Shown here one piece after another: positions 6,280-23,562 of a DNA stretch of 64,000 nt. Source of the stretch: Thiobacillus denitrificans (GTDB lineage: Bacteria; Pseudomonadota; Gammaproteobacteria; Burkholderiales; Thiobacillaceae); the NCBI RefSeq assembly GCF_001530125.1, contig NZ_LDUG01000018.1, forward strand, positions 11,901 through 75,900, written 5' to 3'. Position 1 is the stretch's first letter. The number at the start of each line of letters is the position of its first letter. The notes beneath the pieces were generated by a model. It saw only the letters and a program-made list of their open reading frames with translations, made no database searches and was not told the origin of the DNA. A program made the translations under genes and the position numbers.

Positions 6280-6305
6280 TGGCAACAAAAACCCTGTTGG
6301 TAACA

Positions 6306-6334
6306 AGTAAAAAGGGTGACTCGCGTCACCCTTT
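6306..6334 (-). terminator. Intrinsic terminator between cytochrome c4 and resB
   Basis: On the minus strand a 10-base-pair stem (AAAGGGTGAC / GTCACCCTTT, loop GCGA) at 6311-6334 is followed directly by a T-run. It would end transcripts from the cytochrome c4 gene before resB. Confidence 0.75.
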
Positions 6335-8160: not shown

Positions 8161-9219
<1,059 letters not shown>

Positions 9220-9329
9220 ATTTCCGTTCATGTGTCAAGTTTTCGTCTGTTGTTGCCGAAATATTGTCTGTCAACTGCCATCGGACGACGAACATGATCG
9301 CTTTGCATTCATCCCGCAGGATCCGGAAC

Positions 9330-10121
9330 ATGTCTGATACACCCAAACTGCCGATTGGCATCAAGGATCGGCGCCGAGATCCGGACGAATGGGATAAAAC
9401 CATCGTGGCCTTCCAGTCGCCTTACCGGCTGAAGGATTTGTGCATCGATCAGAGCGCGGATGCATCAAAAGAAGAAACCCGGGGAGTCAAACAAGAATTC
9501 AAGGTGCGTCTCGCCACCACGGAAGACCGCCGTAAATCGGCCAGCCTGCTGATCGAGAAAATGTATAGCTGGCGCGGCTATGACGCCGACGCCCTGATCC
9601 AGGATCCGAACAAGATTACCCTGGTGGCTTATCAGGATGACAAAGTGGTTGGTACGCTTACTTTGGGCCTGGATTCACCACAAGGCATGGTGGTGGACGA
9701 ACTCTACAAGCGCGAAGCAGACATTCTGCGCGCTGAGGGCAGAGTACCCAGCGACATTACCCGTCTTGCCGTTGATCAGGACATCAAGTCCAAGAGCGTC
9801 CTGGCCGCACTGTTTCACCTGTCGTTCATTTATGGCCGCAACATCCACCAGGCCACGGATTTTCTGATTGAAGTGAATCCGCGCCATGTGATTTTCTATC
9901 AGCGCATGCTCGGATTTGAACCGTTTGGTGAAGAAAGAATCTGCCCTCGGGTCAATGCGCCAGCCGTGCTGTTGAGGTTGGACCTGGCTCACGCGAATAA
10001 ACAGATCATTCGATACGGCGGGATGGGTGCGGCCGCTACGGGGGTGAAGTCGATCTACCCCTATTTCTTTTCGCGCGAGGATGAACTGGGCATCACCCAG
10101 CGATTGCTTAAGGGAGAATGA
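9330..10121 (+). CDS. FeeM-like N-acyl amino acid synthase / GNAT-fold acyltransferase
   Basis: The protein has 263 residues. The central part resembles the acyltransferase fold shared by FeeM (N-acyl amino acid synthase), LuxI-type autoinducer synthases and PEP-CTERM-associated acyltransferases. Visible elements are TEDRRKSASLLIEKMYSWRGYD (residues 64-85), the strand LVAYQDDKVVGTLTLGLDS, the motif TRLAVDQDIKSK (144-155) and NPRHVIFYQRMLGFEPFG (183-200). The N-terminal 55 residues are charged and unassigned. The ATG at 9330 is chosen; one at 9294 in the same frame is possible. It is 30 bases upstream of the ThiF-like gene. The expected product is an N-acylated amino compound, but acyl donor and acceptor cannot be read from sequence. 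Confidence 0.75.
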   Translation: MSDTPKLPIGIKDRRRDPDEWDKTIVAFQSPYRLKDLCIDQSADASKEETRGVKQEFKVRLATTEDRRKSASLLIEKMYSWRGYDADALIQDPNKITLVAYQDDKVVGTLTLGLDSPQGMVVDELYKREADILRAEGRVPSDITRLAVDQDIKSKSVLAALFHLSFIYGRNIHQATDFLIEVNPRHVIFYQRMLGFEPFGEERICPRVNAPAVLLRLDLAHANKQIIRYGGMGAAATGVKSIYPYFFSREDELGITQRLLKGE

Positions 10122-10151
10122 TCCCTGGTTGGTTTCCAGAGCCTGGCCCCC

Positions 10152-11009
10152 ATGCAATCTTTTATCTATGACGAAGCCTTTTCCCGCAACATCGGCTGGC
10201 TGACCCGGCAGGAGCAGGATCGGTTGCGCCACAAGCGCGTGGCCATCGCCGGTTTGGGTGGTGTGGGCGGGGTGCATCTGCTGACCTTGTGCCGGCTGGG
10301 TATAGGCAAATTCCACTTGGCCGATTTCGATGCCTTCGATCTGGCCAATTTCAATCGCCAGGCAGGGGCGACAGTCAGCACCCTGGGCCAGAACAAACTC
10401 GGCGTCATGATCCGGCAGGCGCTCGACATCAACCCGGAGCTTGAAACCAAGGGGTTTGCCGACGGCGTGACGGCGGACAATCTGGATGTTTTCCTGGACG
10501 GCGTTGACCTTTATATTGATGGCCTGGATTTCTTCGCGTTCGAAGCACGCCAAAAGGTCTTTGCTGCGTGTGCGGCAAAAGGCATTCCCGCTGTCACCGC
10601 CGCCCCGCTGGGAATGGGCGCGGCCGTGCTCAACTTCCTGCCGGGCGGCATGAGTTTTAATGATTATTTTTGCCTGGACGATGGCCCCGAGGCTGAAAAG
10701 CCATTGCGTTTCCTCATGGGCCTCGCGCCTGCCCACCTGCAAATGAGCTACCTGGCCGACCCTTCGACAGTTGATTTGGCCAGCCGCAAGGGCCCCTCCA
10801 CTATCATGGCTTGCCAGCTCTGCGCCGGTGTCGCCGCCACCGAAGCCTTGAAAATCCTCCTCGGTCGCGGCACGGTGCGGGCGGCGCCGAGGGGCTACCA
10901 TTTCGATGCCTACCGCAACAAGCTGGCTCTGACCTGGCGGCCCGGTGGCAATCGCAATCCCCTGCAGCGGGTTCTCATCGCGCTGGCCAAGCGCAAACTG
11001 GGGCTCTAA
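10152..11009 (+). CDS. ThiF/MoeB/HesA-family adenylyltransferase (E1-like)
   Basis: This 285-residue protein has the E1-like Rossmann fold: nucleotide-binding GLGGVGG (residues 34-40), acidic DFDAFDLANFNRQ (58-70) with the conserved Asn-Arg-Gln, Lys82 and Asp123. Canonical MoeB/ThiF have two CxxC zinc pairs; only one pair (CQLC, 221-224) is obvious. No ubiquitin-like or ThiS/MoaD partner gene is nearby. Its stop abuts the start of the nitroreductase-like gene. Family knowledge predicts ATP-dependent adenylation of a carboxylate. The combination recalls mycobacterial Rv1355c-type proteins, in which ThiF and nitroreductase domains are fused; here they are separate genes. Confidence 0.8.
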   Translation: MQSFIYDEAFSRNIGWLTRQEQDRLRHKRVAIAGLGGVGGVHLLTLCRLGIGKFHLADFDAFDLANFNRQAGATVSTLGQNKLGVMIRQALDINPELETKGFADGVTADNLDVFLDGVDLYIDGLDFFAFEARQKVFAACAAKGIPAVTAAPLGMGAAVLNFLPGGMSFNDYFCLDDGPEAEKPLRFLMGLAPAHLQMSYLADPSTVDLASRKGPSTIMACQLCAGVAATEALKILLGRGTVRAAPRGYHFDAYRNKLALTWRPGGNRNPLQRVLIALAKRKLGL

Positions 11010-12083
11010 ATGCAGCCGATCCCTCAGCCCATGGCGGACATTCTCGAACTCGCCCGTTGGGCGCCATCCGGTGATAACTCGCAACCTTGGCGCTTTGAGG
11101 TGTTTGCGGGTGATCGCGCCGTAATACATGTGCACGATACCCGATCGCACTGTGTATACGACTTCCAGGGACGTGCGACTCAGCTGGCCGTGGGGGCGCT
11201 GATAGAGACATTGCACATCGCCGCCTCAAGCATCGGATATCGGGTGACGATTACATCAGAAGCCGGCGCAGTCCCTACACACACAAAACACAATCTTGGT
11301 TTGCAGCCCGATGGCGCCATAAAATCCGATCCACTTGCCGCATCAATCACACGGCGTTGTGTGCAGCGACGCCCTCTGTCATTCCGTTCGCTGACTTTGG
11401 ATCAAAGGCGCGCCCTCGAAGATGCGGCTGCCCCATACACACTTCGCTGGCTGGATACGCCTGGGCAGCGGCTGGAGATGGCACGCCTGCTGTTTATAAG
11501 TGCAAAGACCAGATTGATTGCGCCCGAAGCCTATGAAGTTCACCGTGCCATCATCGCCTGGCGTAGCCGGTATAGCGATGACCGGGTGCCGGATCAGGCG
11601 CTTGGTCTTGACCCGCTCACCTTGCGTCTCATGCAATGGGTGATGCGCAGCTGGAAGCGGGTTCGGTTTTTTAACCGGTATCTGGCGGGCACCTATATGC
11701 CTCGCCTGCAACTGGACTTGATCCCCGGCTTGGCCTGTGCCGCGCATTTCGCCCTGATATCAACTTCTTCGCCGCGCCAGCCTGAGGATTTCGTCGCAGC
11801 GGGACGAGCCATGCAGCGCCTTTGGCTCACCGCCACGCATTTGGGCCTGCAACTACAGCCTGAGATGACCCCGCTCATATTTAGCTGGTATCACGATAGC
11901 GGCACGCGATTTAGCCAGATCGAAGCCGTTCAGCGCACGTTGCCAGCAATACGTGACAGGCTGGCGAAGGTAATGGGGGAGGACGTGCCAAGCCATGGAG
12001 TTTTTATGGGGCGGGTCGGCTGGGGCAAGCAGGCGGCAAGCCGTTCGCGCCGGCTTCCCCTTGATCGTTTGATTAATCGTTGA
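11010..12083 (+). CDS. Nitroreductase-like flavoprotein, third gene of the acyltransferase/E1 cassette
   Basis: This 357-residue protein begins with RWAPSGDNSQPWRF (residues 16-29), the FMN-phosphate-binding signature of nitroreductase-family enzymes. A second helix-rich half ends in a basic tail (SRSRRLPLDRLINR). The family reduces nitro, quinone or other acceptors with NAD(P)H, or performs FMN-dependent oxidations on modified peptides; the substrate here is unknown. The ATG directly follows the TAA of the E1-like gene, so the two are translationally coupled. A membrane-interacting stretch near residues 230-255 (PGLACAAHFALIS) is hydrophobic but short. Confidence 0.78.
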   Translation: MQPIPQPMADILELARWAPSGDNSQPWRFEVFAGDRAVIHVHDTRSHCVYDFQGRATQLAVGALIETLHIAASSIGYRVTITSEAGAVPTHTKHNLGLQPDGAIKSDPLAASITRRCVQRRPLSFRSLTLDQRRALEDAAAPYTLRWLDTPGQRLEMARLLFISAKTRLIAPEAYEVHRAIIAWRSRYSDDRVPDQALGLDPLTLRLMQWVMRSWKRVRFFNRYLAGTYMPRLQLDLIPGLACAAHFALISTSSPRQPEDFVAAGRAMQRLWLTATHLGLQLQPEMTPLIFSWYHDSGTRFSQIEAVQRTLPAIRDRLAKVMGEDVPSHGVFMGRVGWGKQAASRSRRLPLDRLINR

Positions 12084-12427: not shown

Positions 12428-12444
12428 TGGCATGGGGGTTGCTT
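12428..12444 (+). promoter_or_regulatory. Sigma54 (-24/-12) promoter of the PEP-CTERM gene
   Basis: TGGCATGGGGGTTGCTT matches the RpoN consensus TGGCAYR-N4-TTGCW. The invariant GG and GC are in correct phase (12 bases apart). Transcription should start near 12453, giving a leader of about 57 bases before the AAGGAG at 12501. Confidence 0.85.
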
Positions 12445-12510: not shown

Positions 12511-13395
12511 ATGATGAACTTGAAAAAATCTTTGCTTGGCGTGTCTCTCGCCGCTTCGCTGGGCTTTGGTGCAGCCGCCAATGCAGCTTTTGTCATGGAA
12601 GATCTGACGATCGACTTCACCTCTGTCGGTGGGCCCGTCGTAATGGGCGTGGATGCCATCGGCTTCAACGATGCGCCGTTTCGCTCCATCCTGACTGACG
12701 TCAATGGTAACGGCTTGGATGCCGGCGATTTCTATACGGTTACGGGCAAGGGCGCTGCCGGCACTCTGCTGAGCAATGAGGATGGCACCATTTCTCCGTC
12801 TGGTTTCGGCCTGGCTGGCGGCTTTGAACTGACCTTCGATTTCAATCTGGATGTGTTGGTTACCTCCGTTGTTGGTCCACAGATCAACTTTACCCACATG
12901 GCGGGTGCTGACGCGCTGCGTTTTTACCTCGACGATCTCGATGCGGCCAATGGCGACGGCGGCGTGAAATCCAACCCCGGCACCGGCCTCGGCTACACCG
13001 ATGGCACCCTGGTGCTGACCTTTGACGTTTTGGCAGGTGAAGGTGGCAGTGTGAATGTGAGCACCTTGTTCGATGGCTCGGATGATGCAACTTTCATCCT
13101 GGCAGCGATCAACACGGCGGGTATCTTCAAAGACTCAGAGGGTAAGCCGTTTGTGATCGGCAGCACGCTCGCCCTTACCGACAGCAACTTCGACCTCGAC
13201 TCGAACAACAACAACAAGCTCGACGAAACCCGCGGTGGTTTCGGTTGCACGGAAGCCAACCAAAGCGCTGGCTTCTTCTGCGGCGTGGAAGATGGCACGG
13301 TGCGCTTCGCGGTGCCCGAACCCGGCACGCTCGCGATCATGGGCCTGGGGCTGCTTGGCCTTGGCTGGTCCGCGCGTCGCAAGGCTTCTGTCTGA
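12511..13395 (+). CDS. PEP-CTERM sorting-domain protein
   Basis: The protein has 294 residues: a signal peptide (KKSLLGVSLAASLGFGAAANA), a mature Asp/Gly/Ser-rich beta domain with no recognised enzyme motif, and a C-terminal sorting signal (residues 268-294). That signal is VPEPGTLAIMGLGLLGLGW followed by ARRKASV. Such proteins are exported, cut by an exosortase at the PEP motif and released or linked to exopolysaccharide. EDGTVRFAVPEPG and Cys-containing GCTEANQSAGFFCG precede the signal. AGGAG lies four bases before ATG 12511 and seven before ATG 12514, so the second ATG may be the true start. It is driven by a sigma54 promoter with PEP-CTERM boxes. Confidence 0.9.
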   Translation: MMNLKKSLLGVSLAASLGFGAAANAAFVMEDLTIDFTSVGGPVVMGVDAIGFNDAPFRSILTDVNGNGLDAGDFYTVTGKGAAGTLLSNEDGTISPSGFGLAGGFELTFDFNLDVLVTSVVGPQINFTHMAGADALRFYLDDLDAANGDGGVKSNPGTGLGYTDGTLVLTFDVLAGEGGSVNVSTLFDGSDDATFILAAINTAGIFKDSEGKPFVIGSTLALTDSNFDLDSNNNNKLDETRGGFGCTEANQSAGFFCGVEDGTVRFAVPEPGTLAIMGLGLLGLGWSARRKASV

Positions 13396-13410
13396 GGCAC
13401 TGCCCCGGAC

Positions 13411-13443
13411 GAAAAACCCGCAGCTTGCTGCGGGTTTTTTTTC
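13411..13443 (+). terminator. Intrinsic terminator after the PEP-CTERM gene
   Basis: AAAACCCGCAGC pairs with GCTGCGGGTTTT, followed by an unbroken T-run, 16 bases after the stop. The A-run on the other side could make it bidirectional. Confidence 0.9.
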
Positions 13444-13516
13444 GTCCATGCTTTGCCATCTCTTCGAGTCGTGCCACCATTTCATCACGCATCAAAATTA
13501 TTGGAATGGAAGAAAT

Positions 13517-14398
13517 ATGCCTAGCCTGCCCGTGATCAAGCAATTCATCACCGAACTGGTCTCGCGTCGCGATGCGTTTCGCGTACCTGAGCCCAATCTG
13601 GTGATGGACGACCCCGAGCAGGTGCGCGGGTTTAACGAAGCCGGGCTGGAAGGCGGTGTGATGGCGCCGGTTTACCTGTTTCATGCGATCAATGTAACCG
13701 AGGTGATACGCCCGGGGGACACCGTATTGGATCTTGGCTGCGGGCCGGCCAATCAACTGGCGATGATCGCCCGCTTGAATCCCGAGAGTCAGTTTCTTGG
13801 GCTGGACCTCTCGGACGAGATGCTGATCCGGGCCCAGTCTCAAGTGGATGCGCAGCGCCTGGTCAACGTCAGACTGCGCCACGAGGATATCACCCGGCTG
13901 GAGAGCGTGGCCGATCAAAGCGTGGACGCGGTATTCTCGACCGTGGTGCTTCACCAGTTACCGGATCTTGATGCCTTCAATGCGGTGTTCCGGCAGATAG
14001 ACCGGGTGCTGAAGCCGGAAGGTGGCGTGTATCTGGTTGATTTTGGGCATTTGAAGACCGAGCGCGCGATCGATTATTTCGCTCACCAGTATGCCGATCG
14101 TCAGCCGGATATATTTACGCGCGATTACCATAATTCGTTGCGGGCGGCGTTTGACTACACCGATTGGCAGACCGCGCAGCGTAACAGCCTTGCCTCGCGC
14201 GCCCGGCTATTCAGTACTTTTGCCATGCCTTATATGGTGGCGGTGAAAAGCCGCGGGCGACACTCGCCAAGCGCCGCGCAGCGGGAACAGTTCGGCGCGC
14301 TGTATCGCGCCATGCCTGATTGGCATAGGCGCGATTTCGACGATTTGAGAACCATGTTCAGATTGGGTGGGCTGAAGTTGCACGATTTCCCCAAATGA
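13517..14398 (+). CDS. Class I SAM-dependent methyltransferase
   Basis: This 293-residue protein has the Rossmann methyltransferase motifs: motif I VLDLGCGPANQL (70-81), the acidic LGLDLS (94-99), then ADQSVDAVFSTVVLHQLPD and the post-motif VLKPEGGVYLVDFGHL. The ATG at 13517 follows GGAAG by five bases; the longer upstream frame runs through the terminator. About 65 residues precede motif I. The substrate is not evident. It stands alone after a terminator and converges on prsT, so a role in the PEP-CTERM/EPS system is only suggested by position. Confidence 0.85.
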   Translation: MPSLPVIKQFITELVSRRDAFRVPEPNLVMDDPEQVRGFNEAGLEGGVMAPVYLFHAINVTEVIRPGDTVLDLGCGPANQLAMIARLNPESQFLGLDLSDEMLIRAQSQVDAQRLVNVRLRHEDITRLESVADQSVDAVFSTVVLHQLPDLDAFNAVFRQIDRVLKPEGGVYLVDFGHLKTERAIDYFAHQYADRQPDIFTRDYHNSLRAAFDYTDWQTAQRNSLASRARLFSTFAMPYMVAVKSRGRHSPSAAQREQFGALYRAMPDWHRRDFDDLRTMFRLGGLKLHDFPK

Positions 14399-14516: not shown

Positions 14517-17300
14517 TTATAACTTGTTGAGCAGTGCGCGTAACGCAGATTGCTGGGGCGAGAGTTTTTGCGAGGCGGGCTGGGCGATAAGACGTGCTTC
14601 ACGCGTTTCGCCGTGTTCTGCCAGCGCGGTTGCCAGATGCAATGCAATCTCCGGGTTCCCGGGTAGCGCGGCATAGGCAGCCTTGAGTGTGGAGATGCCT
14701 TTCTCCAATTGACCGCTCTGAACTTGTATCCAGCCGAGCGTGTCCTGAATCAGCGGATTCTTGGGCGCCGCCTGCGCAGCTTTTTCGGCATAAGACAGGG
14801 CTTTTGCATCCCCGATGGATTGATAGAGAATAGCCAAATTGTTCAGTGCCTGCACGTCGCCGGGGGACTGGCGCAGTATCAGCAAATATTGCTCGATTCC
14901 TTCGCGTGACTGCCCTGATTGTGCATAGAAGCCTGCCAGATGCCGCCGTACGCCACCATCCTTGGGATGTTGGCTCAGCCAGGTTGTCAGTAATCCGTTC
15001 GCCGCGTCGATTTGTCCGCTGCGCACCAAGGCCATGTGCAGGTAGCTTGCGCTACGCGAATCATTGGCGATGGCATGAGCCTGCCGATAAGCTTCGAGTG
15101 CCTGGGCAGATTGCCCTTGCGCGTCAAGCATCTGCCCTTCCTGATACCAGCCTGTTGCAGATTGGGGAAAACGCTGCTTGAGCTCGGCGATGAGCTTTTT
15201 TGATTCGACAAAATTCTTCTCGGCGATACGAAGAGTGGACAGGAGCGCCAGGGTCTCGATGTCGCCTGGGGTGGCGCCGCGCGATTTTTCCAGATTGGCA
15301 ATCGCTTCCGCACGCTTGCCGATGGCAAGCTGGGCGGTAGCCAGTCGATAGAGCAGCCTGGGCGTCGATGACTGTTGCGCGAGCCTGGTATAACTGGCCG
15401 CTGCATTGGCCATGTCGTTGCTGGCGTATTGCACATCGGCAAGCAAGGCTTGCGCGATGGAATTCTCGGGTGCGGCGTTGATGGCGTCGCGGGCCGCCGA
15501 CAAGGCCTGATCAGGCTGGTTTGCATTGATGAGGCCACGTACACGCAGGGCGTGTGCGGGCATATACGCGGGATTTGCCTTGAGTGCCTTGTCGATCCAT
15601 TTCAGAGACGCCTGGCGATTGCCTTTCGAGGCTTCGAGTTCAGCCAGCGTGAATAACGCTTGCGCATGCACAGGAAACTGGTCGACGTAGCGGGTCAGCC
15701 GCGCGATCGATTTGTCGATGGTTTTGGCGCGTTTGTCCAGTTGGGCCAGATTGAGAATCGCCGCGATCGCCTCAGGATCGATGGCGTGCGCCTGCTCGAA
15801 ACTGGCATACCCGCCGTTGATATCGCCGGAAGCCACCTGAGCCATGCCTTTGAGGTTGTAGGCAAGGGCGTTTTTTGAGGCACGCTGGATCAGCCGGTTC
15901 GCGACACCCAGTGCTTCGGCATTCCTCTTTTTCTTGATCAGTTCGGAAATCGCAATGACATCGGCGGATGTGACCTGTCCTTCCGCGCCATTGAGTGCAT
16001 TCAGTTCAGTAAATCCTTGTTCATCGTCGCCAGTTTGAAAATGCAGAGAGGCGAGGCGGGTCAAGATAACTGGGTTCCCTGGCGCAAGTTGATTGGCCTG
16101 CGTGAGCGAGGCGATCGCTTGTGCCGAGTTGCCGCGCGATTGCTGCGTTTGTGCGAGCAGGGCAAGGACTTGCGGGTCGCGGGTGGTGAGCGCGATTGGG
16201 GCGAGCGTCTTGTAAGCAGATTCCGCATCGCCAGTCAGCAGTTGGGCGGACGCCAGATATTTTCTTGCTTCCGTGCGGCCTGGCGAGCGATTTACGACTT
16301 TCGACAGATGCGCGATGGCCTGCTCATACGATTTCATTTCGTAGAGCACCAAGCCCGCCAGAAGGTTGGTCTTGGTGTGGCCTGGCTGGCTCCCCAATAG
16401 CTGCTGAATTGCGGACAGAGCAGCTTGGAATTTGCCCTCTTGGTACTTGAACACCGCATCAAGGTAAAGCAGATCGGCGCTCTTGGGTGCGCTTTCCCGC
16501 AGCACTTCCAGATCCTTGCGCGCACGTTCTTTCTGGTTCATGGACAGCGAGATCAGCGCGTGCTTGAGCAACGCGCTTCTGTTTTCGGGCTGCAGGGCCA
16601 GGGTTTTTGAAAAACTCTTTTCAGCCGCGTCGAGATGGTTCTGATTGAGTTCGATATCGCCAAGCAATATCCAGTTCTCGACGTCCTCTGGCGCGAATTT
16701 GATCGCTGTTTGCAATTGTGCGCGAGCGCGGTCTGGATTCTTGGCATGCATCGCGCAACGGGCACGTCCACGATAGGCGGCACCAAGCTGGCTGTCCAGG
16801 TTCAGTGCGGAGTCGAAAAGCGCGCACCCTGATTCGGGCTGTCGAAGCCCCAGCTTGGCTTCACCCTGCATGCTCAAAAGCATGGCTTTCTGCCGGGAAG
16901 AGGCGTTATCCGATGGAATCGATTTTTCAAGCGCCTGGGTGTAGTCACCTTGCAGCAGCAGCGCTTGTACAAGCTGCGTCTGGAGGGATTCGTGTGCGAC
17001 ACCGAATTCCTCGGCACGTTTAAGCTCTTTTTCAGCATCCGCGCCTTGTCCGAGCTTCAGGTACGCTTCGCCAAGAAGCCAGCGTATTTGGGCATTGTTT
17101 GGGTCTTTCTGGAGCGCGTTCTTGAGCTCCAGGATGCTTCCTTTGAAATCTTTCTGGGTGTGTAGATCCTTCGCGCGTTGGAGGTGCTCCTCGGCCGTGA
17201 GATCGAGAAAGCGGTCACATCCTGCAAGCGTGACAACGGAGAGCAAAGCCAGAGCAAGGGATAGTGCGGGCATTGCGCGTCTAAAGAAATGTGGTCGCAT
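14517..17300 (-). CDS. prsT: PEP-CTERM system TPR-repeat lipoprotein PrsT (first paralog)
   Basis: This 927-residue lipoprotein has a signal peptide ending in the lipobox LAGC (Cys28). More than twenty tetratricopeptide repeats follow (for example HLQRAKDLHTQKDFKGSILELKNALQKDPNN), running to the C-terminus. PrsT-family proteins accompany exosortase/EPS loci and probably scaffold export or assembly of polysaccharide at the outer membrane. It is the last gene of the prs operon, 10 bases after its paralog. Codon use looks less GC-biased than in the upstream copy, in line with a different evolutionary history. Confidence 0.9.
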   Translation of the reverse strand: MRPHFFRRAMPALSLALALLSVVTLAGCDRFLDLTAEEHLQRAKDLHTQKDFKGSILELKNALQKDPNNAQIRWLLGEAYLKLGQGADAEKELKRAEEFGVAHESLQTQLVQALLLQGDYTQALEKSIPSDNASSRQKAMLLSMQGEAKLGLRQPESGCALFDSALNLDSQLGAAYRGRARCAMHAKNPDRARAQLQTAIKFAPEDVENWILLGDIELNQNHLDAAEKSFSKTLALQPENRSALLKHALISLSMNQKERARKDLEVLRESAPKSADLLYLDAVFKYQEGKFQAALSAIQQLLGSQPGHTKTNLLAGLVLYEMKSYEQAIAHLSKVVNRSPGRTEARKYLASAQLLTGDAESAYKTLAPIALTTRDPQVLALLAQTQQSRGNSAQAIASLTQANQLAPGNPVILTRLASLHFQTGDDEQGFTELNALNGAEGQVTSADVIAISELIKKKRNAEALGVANRLIQRASKNALAYNLKGMAQVASGDINGGYASFEQAHAIDPEAIAAILNLAQLDKRAKTIDKSIARLTRYVDQFPVHAQALFTLAELEASKGNRQASLKWIDKALKANPAYMPAHALRVRGLINANQPDQALSAARDAINAAPENSIAQALLADVQYASNDMANAAASYTRLAQQSSTPRLLYRLATAQLAIGKRAEAIANLEKSRGATPGDIETLALLSTLRIAEKNFVESKKLIAELKQRFPQSATGWYQEGQMLDAQGQSAQALEAYRQAHAIANDSRSASYLHMALVRSGQIDAANGLLTTWLSQHPKDGGVRRHLAGFYAQSGQSREGIEQYLLILRQSPGDVQALNNLAILYQSIGDAKALSYAEKAAQAAPKNPLIQDTLGWIQVQSGQLEKGISTLKAAYAALPGNPEIALHLATALAEHGETREARLIAQPASQKLSPQQSALRALLNKL

Positions 17301-17310
17301 GGCAAAGGCC

Positions 17311-20085
17311 TCAATGGGTAGCGGTCAAATGATTGTAGAGCTGGCGGGCCTGTGCTTCGGCGGTGAAGCCCACATTGCGATCCAGCAGCATCTTGAGCTC
17401 TTGGCGTGCGCGTGCCTTGTCGCCGTTTTCATTGAGTGCATAAGCCAGATGCCACTGAATTTCAGCCGCATCAGGGGCTTTTGATTGAGCTTTTTTCAAA
17501 ATGCCCAGGCCCTTGGCAGCGTTCCCCGAGCGAACCAGCAGCCAGCCATAAGTATCGAGTACGGCCGGATTGTCGGGCTTGAGCTTGAGCGCCTGCTCGG
17601 CAAAGGATAACGCGCGCTTGTCGTTGAGTTCGGAAAGCGTCCACGCTAGATTATTCAATACCAGCAGATTGCCGGGGTTGCTCTTGTTCAGCACCAGGTA
17701 ATGCTCGGCCGCGGCAGCGTATTGCTTGCGCCTGATCAGACTTTCGGCCAGCAGGGCGCGCGTGTCCGCGTCTTGGGGATTGGCGACCAGCCAGGCGGCG
17801 AGGCGTTTTTCGCCTTCCCCGGGGCGCTGGGTGGCGTTGAAGACCTGTAACTGGCGGGCGAGCAGCGCGCCGGAAGGCGCCAGTTTGTGCGCGCGCTCGA
17901 AGGCGGCAAGCGCGGCAGGGTAGTCCTTGCGCGCAAATGCGGTATCGCCTTCGAGGATGAAGCCAGCCGGTTTGTCGGGTTTTTGCTGCTGCACCTGTTT
18001 GGCGAGTTTGCTGGCCTCGTCAAAGCGCGCGCCCTGAATCTCGACGCCGCCCAGCATCAGTTGCGCGTCGAGAAAGTCGGGCTGGATGCGCAGCGCGTCC
18101 TGCAGGGTCTTGCGTGCACCGGGGAGGTCTTTGGCCGTGATTTGTGCGGTGGCCACCTTGACCAGGGGGGCAGCCTGGCCGGGCATGCGTTCGGCCAGCT
18201 TGCGGTAGCTGCCCAGCGCGTTGGTGGTGTCGCCCAGCGCCAGCTGGGTGGTGCCGAGGAGGTCGAGCGCAACCGGGTTGTCGGGCTGTGCGTTGACCGC
18301 CTCGCGTGCGGTGGCGAGCGCTTTGTTCCTGTCGCCCTTGGCGAGCTGGTAGCGCGCCAGCGCCACCCGCGGCTGCAGCGCCTGCGGGTGGGCGGCGGCG
18401 GCCTTTTCCAGCCAGTTGACATAGGATTTTTCGTCTTTGTCGCGCAGGGCGAGGTCGGCCAGCGCGAGCATGGCGTTGAGGTGCTTGGGCTCGGCCTTGA
18501 GGATGGCCTCGAAACGCTGGCGCGCGGCAGCGGGCTGCTTGTCCTTGAGGTCGAGTTGCGCCAGGTTGGCCGCAGCGGGGAAGAACGCGGGGTCGAGCTT
18601 GAGTGCCTGGCTGAAGCTGTCGCGCGCGCGGACGGCGTCCTGTTTGCCGAGGTAGGCCGCGCCCCGGTAGTTCCAGATGAGCGGATCGGCGGCCTGTTTC
18701 TTCTCCAGCGTGGCGATGCTGGTCAGCGCGGCGTCGAACTGTTGTTGTCTCAGCTGGTTGAGAATGATGAAGGTGTCGGCGCGGCTGCTGCTGCCTTCCA
18801 TGTCGGCGGCGGCCTGCAGGTCGGCCATGGCACGGCTGTCGCCCTGGGCGAGCCGGGAAATGCCGAGCTCGGTGCGGATGGCGGCGTTGTCGGGGCTGTG
18901 CTGGGCAGCCTGTTCAAAATACGCCGAGGCTTGGGCGAAGTCCTTTTTGGCCAGCGCGATTTCGCCGGCGACGACCAGCACGCCGGGATCCTGGTTGGCC
19001 GACTTGAGCGCCGGGGCGAGTGTTTTCGACGCGTCATCGGGGCGCCCCAGGCGCAGTTGTGTGGCGGCCAGCAGGCGCAGCGCGTACAGGTTGTTCGGCG
19101 CGGCCTTGACCGCTTTGTTGAGGTGCGCCTCGGCGGTCTGCAGGTTGCCCAGTGCGTATTCGATCGAGCCGCCCAGCAGCAGGGCGGGCACGTAATTGGG
19201 CGCGCGCTTCAGCACGGCCGCCAGATGGTCGCGCGCGCGTTCGGTTTTCTTCTCGCGGAAGTCGATGAGCGCCTGGGTGTAACGCGCCTGCAGGTTGTTG
19301 GGGCTGGCTTTCAAGGCGGCATCGACTTCGCTGCGCGCGTCGGCCAGCTTGTTGTCGGCGAGGGCGATGCCCGCCAGTGCCAGCCGGGCATTGGCATGCC
19401 GGGGATCGATCTTGAGGACTTCGCGATAGACCGCGGCGGCTTCGGCCGGTTTCCCGGTGGCGCGCAGCAGGTCGCCCTTCAGCAACAGGCTGTCATGGTG
19501 CCTGGGGTCGATGCGCAAGGCCTGGTCGAGCGCCTGCATGGCCTTGTCGGCATCGCCGTCGGCCAGCGCCAGTTGCGCCAGCGCCAGATGAACCTCGGCA
19601 TTGTCGGGTGCGGCCTGCTGCGTGTGCAGCAGCGTTTTGCGCGCGTCTTCCCTGCGCCCCAGGCTGAGTTCGGCGGTGGCGCGCAGGGCCTGCAGGGTGG
19701 CGGCGTCAGGGCCGGCCGGGGCGGGTAGCTCGTCCAGCACGCGCTGGAATTCGCGCTGACCCAGCAGGGCACGGGCGATCATCGGGTTGATGGCGTTCGC
19801 CGCATAGCCCGCCTCGCGGGCGCGACGGAACTCCTTCTCGGCGCTGGCCAGGTCGTTCTGGTCGAGATAGAGCTTGCCCAGCTCGTAGCGTGCCTCGGGG
19901 TTTTTATCGTCTTCCGCCACGGCATTTTTCAGCTGGATCATCGCCGCCTTGTAGTCCCCCGCCGCGGCCATCGCCCGGGCTTCGGCCACCAGGGTGGCGC
20001 TGTCTTCTCCACTACAGGCAGTCAGCAGGCCGGCACCGAGAATCAGGGCCGGCAGCAGCCGGGATGTGGGGGTGAAGATGGGCAT
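17311..20085 (-). CDS. PEP-CTERM system TPR-repeat lipoprotein PrsT (second paralog)
   Basis: This 924-residue protein is almost the same length as the adjacent prsT product and has the same layout. The lipobox is LTAC (Cys24), followed by tandem TPRs from LVAEARAMAAAGDYKAAMIQLKNAV onward. The end (ADAAEIQWHLAYALNENGD) aligns with the equivalent part of the first copy (GNPEIALHLATALAEHGE). Sequence identity is clearly limited, so this is an old duplication or independent acquisition. It follows prsR by 49 bases in the same operon. It is predicted to be a lipid-anchored scaffold in the cell envelope. Confidence 0.9.
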   Translation of the reverse strand: MPIFTPTSRLLPALILGAGLLTACSGEDSATLVAEARAMAAAGDYKAAMIQLKNAVAEDDKNPEARYELGKLYLDQNDLASAEKEFRRAREAGYAANAINPMIARALLGQREFQRVLDELPAPAGPDAATLQALRATAELSLGRREDARKTLLHTQQAAPDNAEVHLALAQLALADGDADKAMQALDQALRIDPRHHDSLLLKGDLLRATGKPAEAAAVYREVLKIDPRHANARLALAGIALADNKLADARSEVDAALKASPNNLQARYTQALIDFREKKTERARDHLAAVLKRAPNYVPALLLGGSIEYALGNLQTAEAHLNKAVKAAPNNLYALRLLAATQLRLGRPDDASKTLAPALKSANQDPGVLVVAGEIALAKKDFAQASAYFEQAAQHSPDNAAIRTELGISRLAQGDSRAMADLQAAADMEGSSSRADTFIILNQLRQQQFDAALTSIATLEKKQAADPLIWNYRGAAYLGKQDAVRARDSFSQALKLDPAFFPAAANLAQLDLKDKQPAAARQRFEAILKAEPKHLNAMLALADLALRDKDEKSYVNWLEKAAAAHPQALQPRVALARYQLAKGDRNKALATAREAVNAQPDNPVALDLLGTTQLALGDTTNALGSYRKLAERMPGQAAPLVKVATAQITAKDLPGARKTLQDALRIQPDFLDAQLMLGGVEIQGARFDEASKLAKQVQQQKPDKPAGFILEGDTAFARKDYPAALAAFERAHKLAPSGALLARQLQVFNATQRPGEGEKRLAAWLVANPQDADTRALLAESLIRRKQYAAAAEHYLVLNKSNPGNLLVLNNLAWTLSELNDKRALSFAEQALKLKPDNPAVLDTYGWLLVRSGNAAKGLGILKKAQSKAPDAAEIQWHLAYALNENGDKARARQELKMLLDRNVGFTAEAQARQLYNHLTATH

Positions 20086-20134: not shown

Positions 20135-21481
20135 TTATTTCATGCCGATTTTCGCCATCAGGTCATACAGCGTGGGGCGGGTGATGCCGAGCAGTTCGGC
20201 AGCCTGGGCGATGTTGCCGTCGCTGTGGGCGAGCGCGCGGCTGACGGCCAGGCGTTCGGCATGCTCACGCGCCTGGCGCAGGTTGAAGGGCTGCGCCTCG
20301 GCGGGGCCGAGCCCGAGGTCGGCCGCGGTGATCTGGCTGCCGTCGGCCATGATGGTGGCGCGCTTGACCAGGTTTTCCATTTCACGCACGTTGCCGGGCC
20401 AGACGTGGGCTTCGAGCGCGCCCAGCGCGTCGGCGGTGAAGCCCCGCAGGGGGCGCCCCATCTCTCGCGCATAGCGTTCCAGGAACGCCTGGGCCAGCAG
20501 GATGGCGTCGCCGGGGCGTTCGCGCAGCGGTGGAATTTTCACCGTGATTTCGGACAGCCGGTAGTACAGGTCTTCGCGGAAGCTGCCTTCGCGGATCATG
20601 CCGGCGAGGTCGCGGTGGGTGGCGCAGACGACGCGCACGTCGACCGGGATTTCGCCGCGTCCGCCCAGCCGCTCGATCACGCGTTCCTGCAGGAAACGCA
20701 GCAGCTTAGCCTGCAGCGGCATCGGCAGATCGCCGATCTCGTCGAGGAACAGGGTGCCTTCGTTGGCGTATTCGATGCGGCCGATGGTCTGTTTGGCGGC
20801 GCCGGTGAATGCACCTTTTTCATGGCCGAACAGTTCGGATTCCAGCAGGGTGTCGGGGATCGCCGCGCAGTTGATGGCGACAAAGCGCTTGCCGGCGCGC
20901 GGCGACAGTTCGTGCACGCCGCGCGCCAGCACCTCTTTGCCGGTGCCGGATTCGCCCAGCAGCAACACCGTGACGTTGGCCGGGGCGACTTTTTCCACGG
21001 TGTGGCACACCTTGAGCATCGGCTCGCTGCTGGTGATCAGCCCCTGCAAGGCGGAGCCTTGCTGCCTGGCGGCGAGCAGGCGGTTTTCGATTTCCAGCGT
21101 GTGGACATGCAGCGCGCGGGCGATCATCAGTGCCAGCACGTCGGGGTCGAAGGGTTTCTGGAAGAAGTCGTAGGCGCCGAGCTGGATGGCTTTTACCGCA
21201 TTGCTGCGATCGAGGTTGCCAGTGACGACGATGACCTTGGTGGCCGGGGCGAGCGAGAGGATTTGCTGCAGCGTGGCCAGGCCTTCGGTGGCGCCGTCGG
21301 CATCGGGCGGCAGGCCGAGGTCGAGCAGCACCACGGCGGGTTCGTGGCGGCGCAGCTGGGCGATGGCGCTGTCGCGGTCGGCGGCGATCGCCAGTTCGTA
21401 ATCGGCGAGGCTCCACTTCAACTGCTTTTGCAGGCCCGGGTCGTCTTCCACCAGCAGAATTTTTTGCTTGGCGTCGCTCAT
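20135..21481 (-). CDS. prsR: PEP-CTERM-box response regulator, sigma54-dependent activator PrsR
   Basis: This 448-residue NtrC-type regulator has a receiver domain with phospho-acceptor Asp54. Its AAA+ domain has Walker A GESGTGKE (176-183) and the sigma54-contacting loop GAFTGA (223-228). It ends in a Fis-type helix-turn-helix (NIAQAAELLGITRPTLYDLMAKIGMK). The ATG at 21481 is chosen for its GGAGGAG and the REC start SDAKQKILLVEDD; the longer frame is PrsK shadow. It overlaps prsK by four bases (ATGA). It is the natural candidate to act at the PEP-CTERM boxes and sigma54 promoters at 12.4 and 43.9 kb. Confidence 0.93.
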   Translation of the reverse strand: MSDAKQKILLVEDDPGLQKQLKWSLADYELAIAADRDSAIAQLRRHEPAVVLLDLGLPPDADGATEGLATLQQILSLAPATKVIVVTGNLDRSNAVKAIQLGAYDFFQKPFDPDVLALMIARALHVHTLEIENRLLAARQQGSALQGLITSSEPMLKVCHTVEKVAPANVTVLLLGESGTGKEVLARGVHELSPRAGKRFVAINCAAIPDTLLESELFGHEKGAFTGAAKQTIGRIEYANEGTLFLDEIGDLPMPLQAKLLRFLQERVIERLGGRGEIPVDVRVVCATHRDLAGMIREGSFREDLYYRLSEITVKIPPLRERPGDAILLAQAFLERYAREMGRPLRGFTADALGALEAHVWPGNVREMENLVKRATIMADGSQITAADLGLGPAEAQPFNLRQAREHAERLAVSRALAHSDGNIAQAAELLGITRPTLYDLMAKIGMK

Positions 21482-23562
21482 GCGGCGTCTCCTCCAACGT
21501 ATGCGTGATTGTCCAGCGGCAGGCTGATGCGGAAGCGGGTGCCGCGCCCCGGTGCGCTGTCCACTTCCAGTTGTCCGCCCAGCGCGCGGATGGTTTCGCG
21601 GCATTCATACGCGCCGATGCCCATGCCCGCGCCCTTGGTCGAATCGAACGGCTGAAACAGCCGGGTGCGGATGAAGGTGTCGTCCATGCCGCTGCCGCTG
21701 TCGCTGATTTCGACAATCGCCTGCCCGGATTCCTCGAATCCGCGCAGCGAGACCTGGCCGCTCGACGGGGTGGCCTCCAGCGCATTTTGCAGCAGATGGC
21801 CGATGGCGCGGGTGAGCCGGTCGCGCTCGGCGCGCACGCGCAGGCTGGACGGCGGCAGATCGAGGGCGGGACGCAGCTTGAATGCCTGCTTGCTGGCGGC
21901 GGCGTCGGCGAGGATATCCGCCAGCGCTACCGATTGTGCCTGCGCCTCATCGCTGCCCCGGCGCAATTGCGCCAGCACCTTGTTCATGCGGGCGACCGCG
22001 TTCTCAATGGTTTCCAGCATGTCGGCCTGGAACTCGGGGTTGTGCTTGTGCTTTTCGGCATTGGCCAGCAGCAGGGACAACTGGGCGACGAGATTTTTCA
22101 GGTCGTGGATGACGAAGGTGGTGGTGCGGTTGAACGACTCGAACTGGCGCGCCACGATGAGCTGGTTGGCCGCACGCATTTGCGCCAGGTGCGCGGCGGC
22201 CTGGCGCGCAGCGACCTTGAGCAGGTCGCTGATTTCCCAGTTGAAACTGACCTTACCCAATGAATGTTTCAGCACGACAAAGCCGAGCAGTTCATCGTGC
22301 AGCATCAGCGGCACCACCAGCCACGCATCGTCGGCGTGCCGGATCCACGCCGGCATGTCGAGGTCGCCGTACAGGTCGCGCCGGGTTTTCATTTCGTCCA
22401 GGTCCACCACCCACTGCTTGTCGGCGAGCCACTGAATGAAGGGGGAGTCGGCCGGCTCGGTGCCGTTGAGGTCGCGCCAGTTCCAGTGGCTGGCGCGCTG
22501 ATAGCCGGCATCGCCTTCATGCATCCACAGCGCGCCGCCGGGGCTTTCGAGCAGTCGGGCCAGCGCTTCGACGGCGCGTTCGCACAATTGCTCGCCGGGC
22601 TGGCCTTCGGTGAGGGCGCGGGTGAACTTGAGCCATTCTTCCCGGTAGTCGTAGCGATAGCTGAAGAAGTGCTTGGACAGGAACACCCGCAGCCGCGCGC
22701 GCAGGGTGCCGGAGAACATCAGCAGCACCAGCAGCATGGCGGCGGCAAACAGGAACACGGTCTGCACCACGTCGCCCCATTCGCCGCCGAACAGGCGCAG
22801 GTAATAGCCGGCGCCCGCCATCAGCAGCAGATAGACCCCCGCGCCCAGCAGGCTGGCGGTGTGGAAGGCCATGCTGCGCGACAGCCCGACCGGCGCCGCC
22901 CACTCCGGGTTGCGGGCGGCGGAGATCGCGATCAATGGCGTCACCAGCGCCGCCACATAGCCGCGTGCCGCCCATACCTGGGCATCCATCGCGTTGAACA
23001 GCGCAGCATTGGCATAAAGGTAAAAGTCGTAGACGAACAGTCCGCCCAGCCCGAGGCAGAGAAACTTGATCGCCCAGCGGTCTTCCAGACGGGTGCTGCG
23101 GTAGACCTGCTCGACCAGCACCAGCCCCATCACCGTGAGCAGCACCAGTCCCAGATTGCCGGCCCAGCGCGCCAGCACCGGCTGGTCGGGGGCGATGAAG
23201 GGCATGACGCTGGCGAGCAGCAGGGCGCCGATGAGCACGCCGCCCAGGGCACGGATCAGGCGCAGCGGTGCGGGCAGGGTGGCGCCAGGCGGCAGCCGCA
23301 GCCGCAGGATATAGAGCAGCAGCAGCAGCCAGGCACCGTTGCGCGCGACCTCGGCGGTGAGTTCAAGCCGCGGTGGCAACACCCCCCACGCGGTGAGCGC
23401 CGACAGGGCACCCCAAGCAGCGCTGAGTCCGGTGGCGAGCACCAGCAGGCGGCCCTGCGGGCGCTGCCGCCAGCTGGCGACGATGAGGCCGGTCAGCCCC
23501 AGGTAGGCCAGCGTTGCCAGGCCATAGCCGACGGCAGCGAGCAGCAGCAGGGTGTCGGGCAT
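21478..23562 (-). CDS. prsK: PEP-CTERM system sensor histidine kinase PrsK
   Basis: This 694-residue membrane kinase has about nine to eleven N-terminal transmembrane helices (residues 1-290) and a GAF-like region (about 310-450). A dimerisation/phosphorylation helix carries the H-box FVIHDLKNLVAQLSLLLAN. The C-terminal ATPase domain has DSGSGMD and GAGMGIGAYECRE. Its immediate overlap with prsR marks the pair as a two-component system controlling PEP-CTERM/EPS genes. The signal it senses is unknown. Confidence 0.92.
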   Translation of the reverse strand: MPDTLLLLAAVGYGLATLAYLGLTGLIVASWRQRPQGRLLVLATGLSAAWGALSALTAWGVLPPRLELTAEVARNGAWLLLLLYILRLRLPPGATLPAPLRLIRALGGVLIGALLLASVMPFIAPDQPVLARWAGNLGLVLLTVMGLVLVEQVYRSTRLEDRWAIKFLCLGLGGLFVYDFYLYANAALFNAMDAQVWAARGYVAALVTPLIAISAARNPEWAAPVGLSRSMAFHTASLLGAGVYLLLMAGAGYYLRLFGGEWGDVVQTVFLFAAAMLLVLLMFSGTLRARLRVFLSKHFFSYRYDYREEWLKFTRALTEGQPGEQLCERAVEALARLLESPGGALWMHEGDAGYQRASHWNWRDLNGTEPADSPFIQWLADKQWVVDLDEMKTRRDLYGDLDMPAWIRHADDAWLVVPLMLHDELLGFVVLKHSLGKVSFNWEISDLLKVAARQAAAHLAQMRAANQLIVARQFESFNRTTTFVIHDLKNLVAQLSLLLANAEKHKHNPEFQADMLETIENAVARMNKVLAQLRRGSDEAQAQSVALADILADAAASKQAFKLRPALDLPPSSLRVRAERDRLTRAIGHLLQNALEATPSSGQVSLRGFEESGQAIVEISDSGSGMDDTFIRTRLFQPFDSTKGAGMGIGAYECRETIRALGGQLEVDSAPGRGTRFRISLPLDNHAYVGGDAA

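Follow-up and report, generated by a model that had tools for sequence, protein, structure and literature searches.

What is made by an acyltransferase, an adenylating enzyme and a flavoprotein whose genes lie beside a PEP-CTERM locus, and where does the product go? The question arises from the window considered here, the whole analysed stretch of 64,000 nucleotides from Thiobacillus denitrificans (contig NZ_LDUG01000018.1). A sequence-only reading had described three neighbouring same-strand genes with gaps of 30 and 0 bases. ORF calls, which took in ORFs of at least 60 aa, confirmed this arrangement: the three ORFs are located side by side on the + strand, with 30 bp between the FeeM-like and ThiF-like genes and 0 bp between the ThiF-like and nitroreductase-like genes.

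8167..9219, + strand: upstream neighbour of the synthase gene, presumably HemB-like
9330..10121, + strand: FeeM-type N-acyl amino acid synthase (NAS; PF21926, 182.6 bits)
10152..11009, + strand: putative ThiF/E1-like adenylating cyclase, family PRK08223 (NF006077, 462 bits, cut-off 266)
11010..12083, + strand: putative Acg-like flavin oxidase (FDO), nitroreductase-like (NF005901, 118 bits, and NF047509, 119 bits, both below cut-off)

The NAS comprises 263 aa when counted from the ATG at 9330, while the listed ORF begins earlier, with a TTG at 9264. The order HemB-NAS-ThiF-nitroreductase was also found in three related loci (L063, L086 and L118; 77-91% identity).

Domains, folds and conserved residues of the three proteins

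The earlier assignments as FeeM-like, E1-like and nitroreductase-like proteins were borne out by Pfam domains above their cut-offs, namely FeeM (PF21926, cut-off 27), ThiF (PF00899, 144.6 bits, cut-off 28.1) and nitroreductase (PF00881, 42 bits, cut-off 23.5). For the NAS, FeeM itself (2g0b, E 2.7e-11) was the sole PDB sequence match at E <= 1, which answers the concern that the first gene might match only ordinary acetyltransferases. Furthermore, the three proteins match successive parts of one 989-aa model, PRK14852 (NF011425, 'hypothetical protein' in NCBIfam), in the order positions 83-211, 312-586 and 623-786, with scores of 61.7, 275.5 and 44 bits that are each far under the whole-protein cut-off of 1337. 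The AlphaFold2 model of the ThiF-like protein (pLDDT 90.8) had ThiF 1zfn as its best Foldseek match. The FDO model (pLDDT 88.0) best matched the Acg homologue 2ymv (E 2.1e-12, next match E 1.3e-4).

The adenylation site of the ThiF-like enzyme is intact, with G34xGGxG, D60, N66, N68, R69, Q70, K82, D123 and D126 in 81 of 81 sequences. The Asp equivalent to D217 of TrzS, or to the ATP-site Asp of ThiF, appears to be among these, as judged from the alignment with E. coli ThiF. In the FDOs of the window and all 14 relatives having one (alignment A4), P19, S20, D22, N23, Q25 and W27, which we read as the FMN motif, were unchanged (15/15), as were R116, R120, R270 and R335, which were looked at with R540 and Q651 of TrzS in mind. 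In a further alignment (A3), the window was joined by 19 relatives, all of the 20 except L038.

Given its ThiF/MoeB fold, the ThiF-like protein might instead be a genuine E1 that serves a small protein of the ThiS, MoaD or ubiquitin-like type and neighbours the NAS by coincidence. We regard this as highly improbable. E. coli ThiF carries Cys184, which we take to be its catalytic Cys; Leu185 of the window protein aligns with it in a pairwise alignment, and no Cys was found in columns 180-190 in any of the 81 aligned sequences. Because the E1 cysteine has been lost, a protein carrier is unlikely, and the role of carrier-protein E1 was rejected. Moreover, ThiF co-occurs strongly with NAS and FDO.

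Conservation of the gene set in relatives

Of 473 confirmed relatives, the best 80 (hereafter the named loci) had their flanking genes annotated, using HMM score cut-offs that were fixed before the matches were seen and are uncalibrated. By these cut-offs, an FDO gene lies immediately 3' of ThiF in 64 of these best 80 loci, and a NAS was recognised in the flank of 52 and not recognised in that of the other 28. Genome-wide searches for 19 of those 28 revealed a FeeM match above cut-off in 16 genomes (weak in four, 28-42 bits) and none in three. The FDO is absent from most loci with an MMPL-type exporter that were seen: a recognisable FDO nearby was lacking in 4 of the 6 MMPL-type loci among the best 80, and in 6 of the 8 MMPL-type (Module B) regions fetched. 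An apparent NAS-ThiF fusion in L033 was rejected, as hmmscan of the 673-aa ORF gave ThiF-type families only; the NAS is therefore a separate ORF in another frame. The worry that the three genes might not be neighbours in related genomes is not substantiated, the gene set being conserved in relatives. The proposal that they form one pathway, with activation of a carboxylate, acylation of an amine and a subsequent flavin reaction, is probably right as far as the sequences tell.

Association with XrtA/PEP-CTERM genes

Downstream of the cassette, the window continues as follows:

12428..12443, + strand: sigma54 (-24/-12) promoter-like site, exact consensus match upstream of the PEP-CTERM gene
12511..13395, + strand: PepA-like flocculation-associated PEP-CTERM protein (NF033554, 85.4 bits, cut-off 80; TIGR02595, 23 bits, cut-off 16)
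13400..14398, + strand: SAM methyltransferase, provisional start (PF13847, 73 bits)
14517..17300, - strand: PrsT, XrtA/PEP-CTERM TPR protein, copy 1 (TIGR02917, 637 bits, cut-off 312)
17311..20085, - strand: PrsT, copy 2 (TIGR02917, 982 bits)
20135..21604, - strand: PrsR, PEP-CTERM-box response regulator (TIGR02915, 769 bits)
21478..23562, - strand: PrsK, XrtA system histidine kinase (TIGR02916, 929 bits)
23585..24979, - strand: EpsB2, XrtA system glycosyltransferase (TIGR03013, 550 bits)

The sigma54/PEP-CTERM locus that had been noticed here is thus supported by a real PepA-like gene and one exact sigma54 match. For the latter we used the sigma54 -24/-12 consensus; 0.05 exact matches were expected by chance, and 4 of 100 shuffled sequences had one. 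PepA, both PrsT copies, PrsR, PrsK and EpsB2 are all within 13 kb of the trio, while XrtA is 195 kb from the cassette in this genome. Homologues of the SAM methyltransferase are present in the L034, L042 and L046 regions. The PEP-CTERM neighbourhood had rightly been considered relevant; what appears to be new is the surroundings of the trio in relatives, on which the earlier reading only touched. Craig et al. (2011) reportedly described NAS genes beside PEP-CTERM genes and a linkage between NAS and exosortases, and one paper remarks on this linkage in the stieleriacine cluster of a planctomycete.

We compared the presence of exosortases in two genome samples spread evenly across the respective group, of which the order sample served as a coarse control. 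In the class sample (E <= 1e-6), exosortases were found in 20 of 21 ThiF-positive versus 55 of 208 ThiF-negative genomes; in all 20 of the former, the match was far stronger than the threshold of 1e-20 used for the order sample, where the counts were 27 of 29 versus 25 of 111. Pooled as plain genome counts that ignore kinship, this amounts to 45 of 48 versus 80 of 319, the ThiF-positive genomes in which no exosortase was found being G098, G290 and G410. Among the named ThiF-positive genomes, 47 of 49 have an exosortase, which was not found in two Undibacterium genomes. Similarly, the NAS family TIGR03694 scored above cut-off in 16 of 21 ThiF-positive and 12 of 208 ThiF-negative genomes of the class sample. 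Of the 45 sampled genomes with both ThiF and exosortase, 19 carry the two on one contig, and 13 of these 19 have them inside a stretch of 22 kb. Among the best 80 loci, 36 have a recognised Prs, EpsB2 or EPS gene in the flanking sequence, which extended to at most 10 kb.

Exosortases without a PRK08223-type ThiF are common among the sampled genomes. Within families the picture looks mixed, with no one-to-one match; since several families have an exosortase and lack ThiF, ThiF seems to be nested among the exosortase carriers. One could argue that the co-occurrence with exosortases reflects only shared habitat or ancestry and that the cassette is unrelated to the sorting system. The ThiF-negative exosortase carriers of the same order (25/111) show that the two are separable, and the flanks of six Janthinobacterium loci yielded no recognisable Prs or EPS gene. 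However, those same six genomes have their FeeM match at a distance of about 10 kb from an exosortase, many loci have cassette genes right beside PrsT/R/K, EpsB2 or EPS genes, and ThiF and exosortase share a contig in the proportion given above. We therefore hold an explanation by habitat or ancestry to be quite unlikely.

Two candidate export modules

Two alternative export modules adjoin the ThiF gene of relatives, encoding either an MMPL pump or a LolCDE-like ABC transporter. In both modules, the transporter is accompanied by a LolA-like carrier and by a putative outer-membrane protein that is in part DUF1302-like (presumably an outer-membrane family). One of the two was present in 13 of 20 fetched regions and in 27 of the best 80 of 473 loci; both together occurred in none of these 80, nor in any of the stretches examined. 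Seven of the eight Module B pumps could be aligned (A1), as the L046 pump ran beyond its stretch. Among the candidates scored per genome (at most 4 or 7), the MMPL family was found in 13 of 48 ThiF-positive and 0 of 319 ThiF-negative genomes. Seven of these 13 had supplied the query, and the other six are all ThiF-positive. Neither exporter family was found in 7 of 21 ThiF-positive genomes of the class sample, among at most 4 and 8 candidates scored per genome, and two genomes (G206 and G091) have the ABC exporter and lack the PRK08223-type ThiF. In the genome of the window, a different contig from that of the trio carries the MMPL and outer-membrane genes, whose neighbourhood yielded no LolA-like homologue. 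An assignment of the conserved genes near ThiF in L035 as XrtA-associated acyl-CoA ligase or PLP-enzyme genes was rejected, as they are LolD-, LolC/E-, LolA- and DUF1302-like.

Proposed pathway and product

We consider it probable that the trio is an acyl-oxazolone cassette of XrtA/PEP-CTERM/EPS systems, whose product reaches the cell surface through an export route of its own. From the gene order, domain identity, conserved residues, folds, co-occurrence and co-location observed here, we infer which substrates are used, in what order the steps run, what is made, and how it is exported and acts at the surface, as follows. The FeeM-type NAS would acylate an amino acid, most likely Tyr or Phe, at its amine with a fatty acyl chain. 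With ATP, the ThiF-like enzyme would then adenylate the free carboxylate, allowing the amide oxygen to close a five-membered oxazolone (azlactone) ring. The Acg-like FMN enzyme may desaturate the amino acid moiety with O2, possibly before ring closure, and water could open the ring to yield an N-acyl dehydro-amino acid. The product would be a component of XrtA/PEP-CTERM/exopolysaccharide systems, delivered by the inner-membrane pump (MMPL or LolCDE-like ABC) via the LolA-like periplasmic carrier to the putative outer-membrane protein. In the sampled bacteria, the cassette is found in the company of a sorting and slime system and of dedicated lipid exporters, which points to a surface lipid of this system as the product.

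Two other products need to be weighed. The end product may be an open N-acyl dehydro-amino acid of the kyonggic acid, thalassotalic acid or stieleriacine type, the ThiF-like enzyme activating the carboxylate only or making a fleeting oxazolone that hydrolyses. This is a serious possibility, although we think it the less probable outcome: Massilia kyonggiensis and Thalassotalea with NAS, ThiF and nitroreductase make dehydro-amino acids, and oxazolones were not seen there (PMC12479983). Four Massilia loci (L108, L126, L128 and L129) are among the best 80 of 473 relatives, with a FeeM-type NAS directly 5' in 4/4 and an FDO recognised in 3/4. On the other hand, TyzB, TrzS and OxzB are described as making oxazolones (PMC10404671, PMC12856293), and tryptazolones are reported to be acid labile (PMC12856293), so that the absence of oxazolones could reflect ring loss on extraction. 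We find it rather unlikely that the product is a diffusible AHL-like signal that times matrix production through PrsK/PrsR or another receptor, instead of a structural surface lipid. NAS enzymes are indeed described as structurally akin to AHL synthases (PMC10404671), and the PrsK/PrsR two-component genes are close by in the window. But tryptazolones and C12 tyrazolone were reportedly found mostly in cell pellets (PMC12856293 and PMC10404671, respectively), and LolA-like and putative outer-membrane partners better suit the delivery of an insoluble lipid than diffusible release.

Returning to the acyl-oxazolone lipid, we speculate, with little confidence, that proteobacterial XrtA systems own a private surface lipid of this kind, made by NAS-ThiF-(FDO) and exported by one of two interchangeable pumps through a shared LolA-like/outer-membrane route. 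As a ready electrophile opened by amines, its azlactone could bind PEP-CTERM proteins or matrix sugars covalently and so keep them at the surface. If true, this attachment would answer the question of what the exosortase system anchors to. Should these enzymes be oxazolone synthases with their own exporters, a function would be given to the NCBIfam 'hypothetical protein' families PRK08223, PRK14851 and PRK14852, with a bearing on how wastewater and methane-eating bacteria form flocs and biofilms.

Comparison with known systems

The trio had been named the best candidate for an undescribed pathway in the window, and the fusion of ThiF and nitroreductase domains in uncharacterised Rv1355c-type proteins had been pointed out. 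Undescribed chemistry was rejected, as OxzAB, TyzACB and TrzAS are published acyl-oxazolone producers, and Rv1355c is now TrzS (PMC10404671, PMC12856293). TyzACB of Mycobacterium tuberculosis (Rv2336, Rv2337c, Rv2338c) resembles the trio, by its description, in its separate NAS, single-domain FDO and ThiF-like cyclase; the cyclase and the FDO are predicted to share an operon, and the transporter gene mmpL9 is nearby (PMC10404671). It differs in being actinobacterial and in having tyzA on the opposite strand, and neither exosortase nor PEP-CTERM is among the words of its paper (PMC10404671). OxzA/OxzB of Pseudoalteromonas rubra likewise combine acyltransferase, ThiF and nitroreductase domains and yield acyl-oxazolones, whereas OxzB is a ThiF-FDO fusion and the window genes are separate; this likeness too is one of description (PMC10404671, PMC12856293). 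TrzA/TrzS (Rv1356c/Rv1355c) form the same enzyme set, but TrzS is fused and tryptophan-specific, and the window FDO and ThiF match the Rv1355c model with 118 and 77 bits, far under its cut-off of 476. PRK14852 unites all three domains and PRK14851 ThiF and nitroreductase in one model, whereas the window has a gene for each, none of which reaches the whole-protein cut-offs.

The clusters for kyonggic acid, thalassotalic acid and stieleriacines share NAS, ThiF and nitroreductase with the trio, and N-acyl dehydrotyrosines have been assigned to such clusters (PMC12479983). No oxazolone was seen from them, and the passages considered describe neither an exporter module nor a genome-wide exosortase link. 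In Stieleria maiorica, the stieleriacine cluster includes a PEP-CTERM gene as well, EPS genes lie upstream, and a link to matrix assembly has already been proposed by the authors (PMC7293339). Published phenotypic support is at the level of the NAS and from another species: in Methylomonas sp. LW13, disruption of an XrtA-linked NAS is reported to abolish a distinct polysaccharide band that complementation restores (PMC11072679). In our literature searches, no paper turned up that connects exosortases with oxazolone synthesis or with these exporters. Taken together, the chemistry of the cassette does not appear to be new, but its setting, in the company of exosortase and exporters, does.

The cassette and its predicted chemistry

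Three neighbouring genes on the plus strand, separated by gaps of 30 bp (NAS to ThiF) and 0 bp (ThiF to nitroreductase), were assigned by family matches:

9330-10121, plus strand: N-acyl amino acid synthase (NAS), FeeM-type, family match
10152-11009, plus strand: ThiF/E1-like protein, family PRK08223, family match
11010-12083, plus strand: nitroreductase-fold protein, Acg-like (flavin oxidase, FDO), family match

This agrees with the adjacency and spacing described for 9330-12083 in the sequence-only reading. Each of the three proteins matched its own stretch of PRK14852, a three-domain model (989 aa, 'hypothetical protein'), so the same three domains occur elsewhere as a single chain. FeeM was the sole PDB match of NAS in the sequence search. 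AlphaFold2 models were confident for both the ThiF-like protein (pLDDT 90.8), with E. coli ThiF as its nearest Foldseek neighbour, and the nitroreductase-like protein (pLDDT 88.0), for which the M. smegmatis Acg homologue 2ymv ranked top in Foldseek (E 2.1e-12; runner-up 1.3e-4).

Across 81 ThiF sequences (the window protein and the best 80 of at least 473 named relatives), G34xGGxG, D60, N66, N68, R69, Q70, K82, D123 and D126 were identical; judged by this alignment, the window ThiF keeps the adenylation residues. It carries Leu185 at the position of the E. coli ThiF cysteine that we take to be catalytic, and none of the same 81 sequences (window plus best 80 of at least 473) has a cysteine in columns 180-190.

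According to passages of PMC10404671, TyzA N-acylates tyrosine, the ThiF homologue TyzB closes the ring with ATP and the FDO TyzC performs a desaturation with O2, the product of TyzACB being an acyl-oxazolone; OxzAB of Pseudoalteromonas rubra is described there as performing the same chemistry. Rv1355c, called uncharacterised in the sequence-only reading, now appears in excerpts of PMC12856293 as TrzS, a tryptazolone synthase, while sections of PMC12479983 tie clusters of NAS, ThiF and nitroreductase to N-acyl dehydrotyrosines and report no oxazolone seen. Given this chemistry, the kept adenylation residues and the lack of a cysteine in those columns, homology points to the trio as most likely attaching an acyl group to an amino acid, closing it into a ring and oxidising it.

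Genes of the XrtA (exosortase)/PEP-CTERM system (PrsT, PrsR, PrsK and EpsB2) also lie near the cassette in the window, where the start of a PepA-like ORF is preceded at 67 bp by an exact match to a sigma54-type site. A SAM methyltransferase gene near the cassette (13400-14398) has homologues near ThiF in four relatives' loci (L034, L042, L046 and L133); by analogy with the stieleriacines, for which methylation has been proposed, it might methylate the product. Elsewhere, a Fic-domain protein (41606-42727) scored 47.7 bits against a SoFic-type model (cut-off 550), and a 690-aa ORF (4234-6306) had no NCBIfam match at E 0.001 and may not be a gene.

The trio in related genomes

Of 229 genomes sampled across the class, 21 exceeded the curated cut-off for PRK08223 (PRK08223+), and regions of 10-20 kb were fetched around 20 of these genes, the window's own being left out. 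By blastp, ThiF was 40-68% identical to the window protein in all 20 regions and FDO 26-52% in 14 of them; the two form one ORF in some regions and separate neighbours, as in the window, in others. The NAS family TIGR03694 was over its cut-off in 16/21 PRK08223+ versus 12/208 other genomes. With coordinates compared by hand, a NAS (TIGR03694 or FeeM) lay within about 12 kb of ThiF in 18 of the 21; FeeM was on another contig in two further genomes, and G066 had neither type at the thresholds used.

A scan of named genomes yielded at least 473 confirmed relatives, the best 80 of which, a biased draw of the nearest relatives, were analysed together with at most 10 kb of flanking sequence. Among these best 80 of at least 473, FDO was directly downstream of ThiF (same strand, ≤350 bp) in 64 loci and present in the flank of 69, NAS in 52, and a Prs, EpsB2 or exopolysaccharide (EPS) gene in 36. 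For the 28 loci without a recognised flank NAS, 19 whole genomes were searched: FeeM was over its cut-off in 16 (above 75 bits in 12, weak at 28-42 bits in four) and was not found in three. It was located about 10 kb from an exosortase in all six Janthinobacterium genomes without flank NAS, and likewise in the genomes of L074 and L088. The trio proposed in the sequence-only reading as a functional unit recurs in other genomes, and the window order HemB-NAS-ThiF-NTR was found again in L063, L086 and L118.

Two contigs labelled as Bryobacterales and Planctomycetota MAGs (L103, L107) carry a ThiF 66-67% identical to the window's, which we attribute to misbinning or transfer. In G206, a genome without PRK08223, an FDO-like remnant of 72 aa (L057, 9343-9558) between NAS and an ABC export module suggests loss of ThiF-FDO.

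Association with exosortases

With shared ancestry ignored, exosortase (PF09721) was found in 20/21 PRK08223+ versus 55/208 other genomes of the class sample (Fisher p 4.6e-10), in 27/29 versus 25/111 of an order-level sample (n = 140; p 2.2e-12), and in 45/48 versus 80/319 when pooled. The samples share the window genome and G107, and possibly G224 (neither ThiF nor exosortase; unmatched genomes are partly listed). Fifty named loci drawn from the best 80 of at least 473 gave an exosortase in 47 of 49 searched genomes, with no match in two Undibacterium genomes that have the trio (L097, L101). The PRK08223+ sampled genomes without a match were G098, G290 and G410. The link is one-sided, as numerous exosortase-bearing genomes lack this ThiF.

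ThiF and exosortase shared a contig in 19 of the 45 sampled genomes having both. They spanned 11-22 kb in 13 of these and 28, 38, 47, 73 and 195 kb in five, the last being the window genome, and lay about 1.8 Mb apart in G382. PrsT, PrsR, PrsK or EpsB2 is close to ThiF in many loci. The window genome has a second exosortase (contig C27, L055), whose flanking genes are weakly similar (29-45%) to Wza, a tyrosine kinase and EpsB2.

Two putative export modules

Near the cassette, 13 of the 20 regions that were fetched hold one of two gene sets. Module B (eight regions) consists of a LolA-like protein (PF17131), a putative outer-membrane protein of 580-790 aa and an MMPL/RND pump, which in L046 starts just outside the region (L060). 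Those of its outer-membrane-type proteins that were scanned in Pfam match DUF1302 weakly (L044 and the window genome), only LysM or SPOR (others) or nothing (L052). Module D (five regions) consists of a LolD-like ATPase, two LolC/E-like permeases, a LolA-like protein and a DUF1302 protein, assigned by Pfam or NCBIfam on L035 and partly L037 and by similarity in the other members. Because the large proteins of both modules are related (hhalign probability 99.1%) and their LolA-like proteins probably so (85.3%), there seems to be one route served by two different pumps.

The two pumps occurred together in none of the 20 fetched regions and in none of the best 80 of at least 473 named loci, where Module B was found in seven (once by the outer-membrane-type protein alone) and Module D in 20; no class-sample genome had both at high scores (MMPL >900, ABC permease >590 bits). 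Within the same best 80 of at least 473, matched stretches of permease and ThiF were ≤202 bp apart in 11 of the 20 Module D loci, and MMPL and ThiF were 73-76 bp apart in both Ectothiorhodospira loci.

An MMPL profile, scored on the first four (class) or seven (order) candidates per genome, exceeded 900 bits in nine class-sample genomes (next best 401) and six order-sample genomes (no others passing E 1e-100). These 13 distinct genomes are all PRK08223+, against 0/319 PRK08223- genomes in both samples; seven of them had served to build the profile, leaving 6/6 as the independent part. In one of these six, G410, which has no exosortase match, the pump gene sits 1 kb away from ThiF; the pump's occurrence thus tracks ThiF rather than exosortase. 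In the window genome, the pump and a large outer-membrane-type gene are on a contig other than the cassette's, and no LolA-like homologue was found beside them. The ABC permease profile exceeded 590 bits in seven class-sample genomes (next 270): five are PRK08223+ profile seeds, and G206 and G091 lack PRK08223 but have NAS and exosortase. By these profiles, one or the other exporter family occurs in 14 of the 21 PRK08223+ genomes of the class sample, and neither in the remaining seven.

FDO was not recognised nearby in four of six named MMPL-type loci (from the best 80 of at least 473) and six of eight fetched Module B regions. Since MMPL-type loci usually lack it, desaturation is not universal. 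ThiF and the MMPL module without recognisable FDO nearby were seen in L096, L110, L132, L135, L033, L041, L044, L045, L051 and L052, possibly an FDO-free form of the pathway.

Proposed role and comparison with known systems

Craig et al. 2011 reportedly linked NAS to PEP-CTERM genes. Portions of PMC7293339, PMC4897644 and others cite this link, and the former describes a stieleriacine cluster of one planctomycete with a PEP-CTERM gene inside and EPS genes upstream, proposing a functional link. In Methylomonas sp. LW13, according to parts of PMC11072679, disruption of an XrtA-linked NAS abolished the distinct polysaccharide band that complementation restored; two unrelated genes gave the same effect. 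A locus of Methylomonas koyamae (L117) combines ThiF and FDO with PrsT-like and EpsB2 genes. PMC9850573 does not use the terms ThiF, nitroreductase or acyltransferase, and a literature search, with subscription journals mostly outside its scope, gave two papers that proved unrelated and otherwise nothing joining exosortases to oxazolone, ThiF, LolA, or acyltransferase and nitroreductase with PEP-CTERM. Most likely, the trio would provide the XrtA/EPS machinery with a lipid for the cell surface, which may serve as structural component, anchor or signal.

By sequence relationship, the trio belongs to the acyl-oxazolone/N-acyl dehydro-amino acid kind. The sequence-only reading had seen in it the best candidate for an undescribed pathway; its predicted chemistry is already known from TyzACB, OxzAB, TrzS and the dehydrotyrosine clusters, as portions of PMC10404671, PMC12856293 and PMC12479983 attest. 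Compared with these, the trio is new at the system level, because it is nearly confined to exosortase genomes and has two exchangeable export modules.
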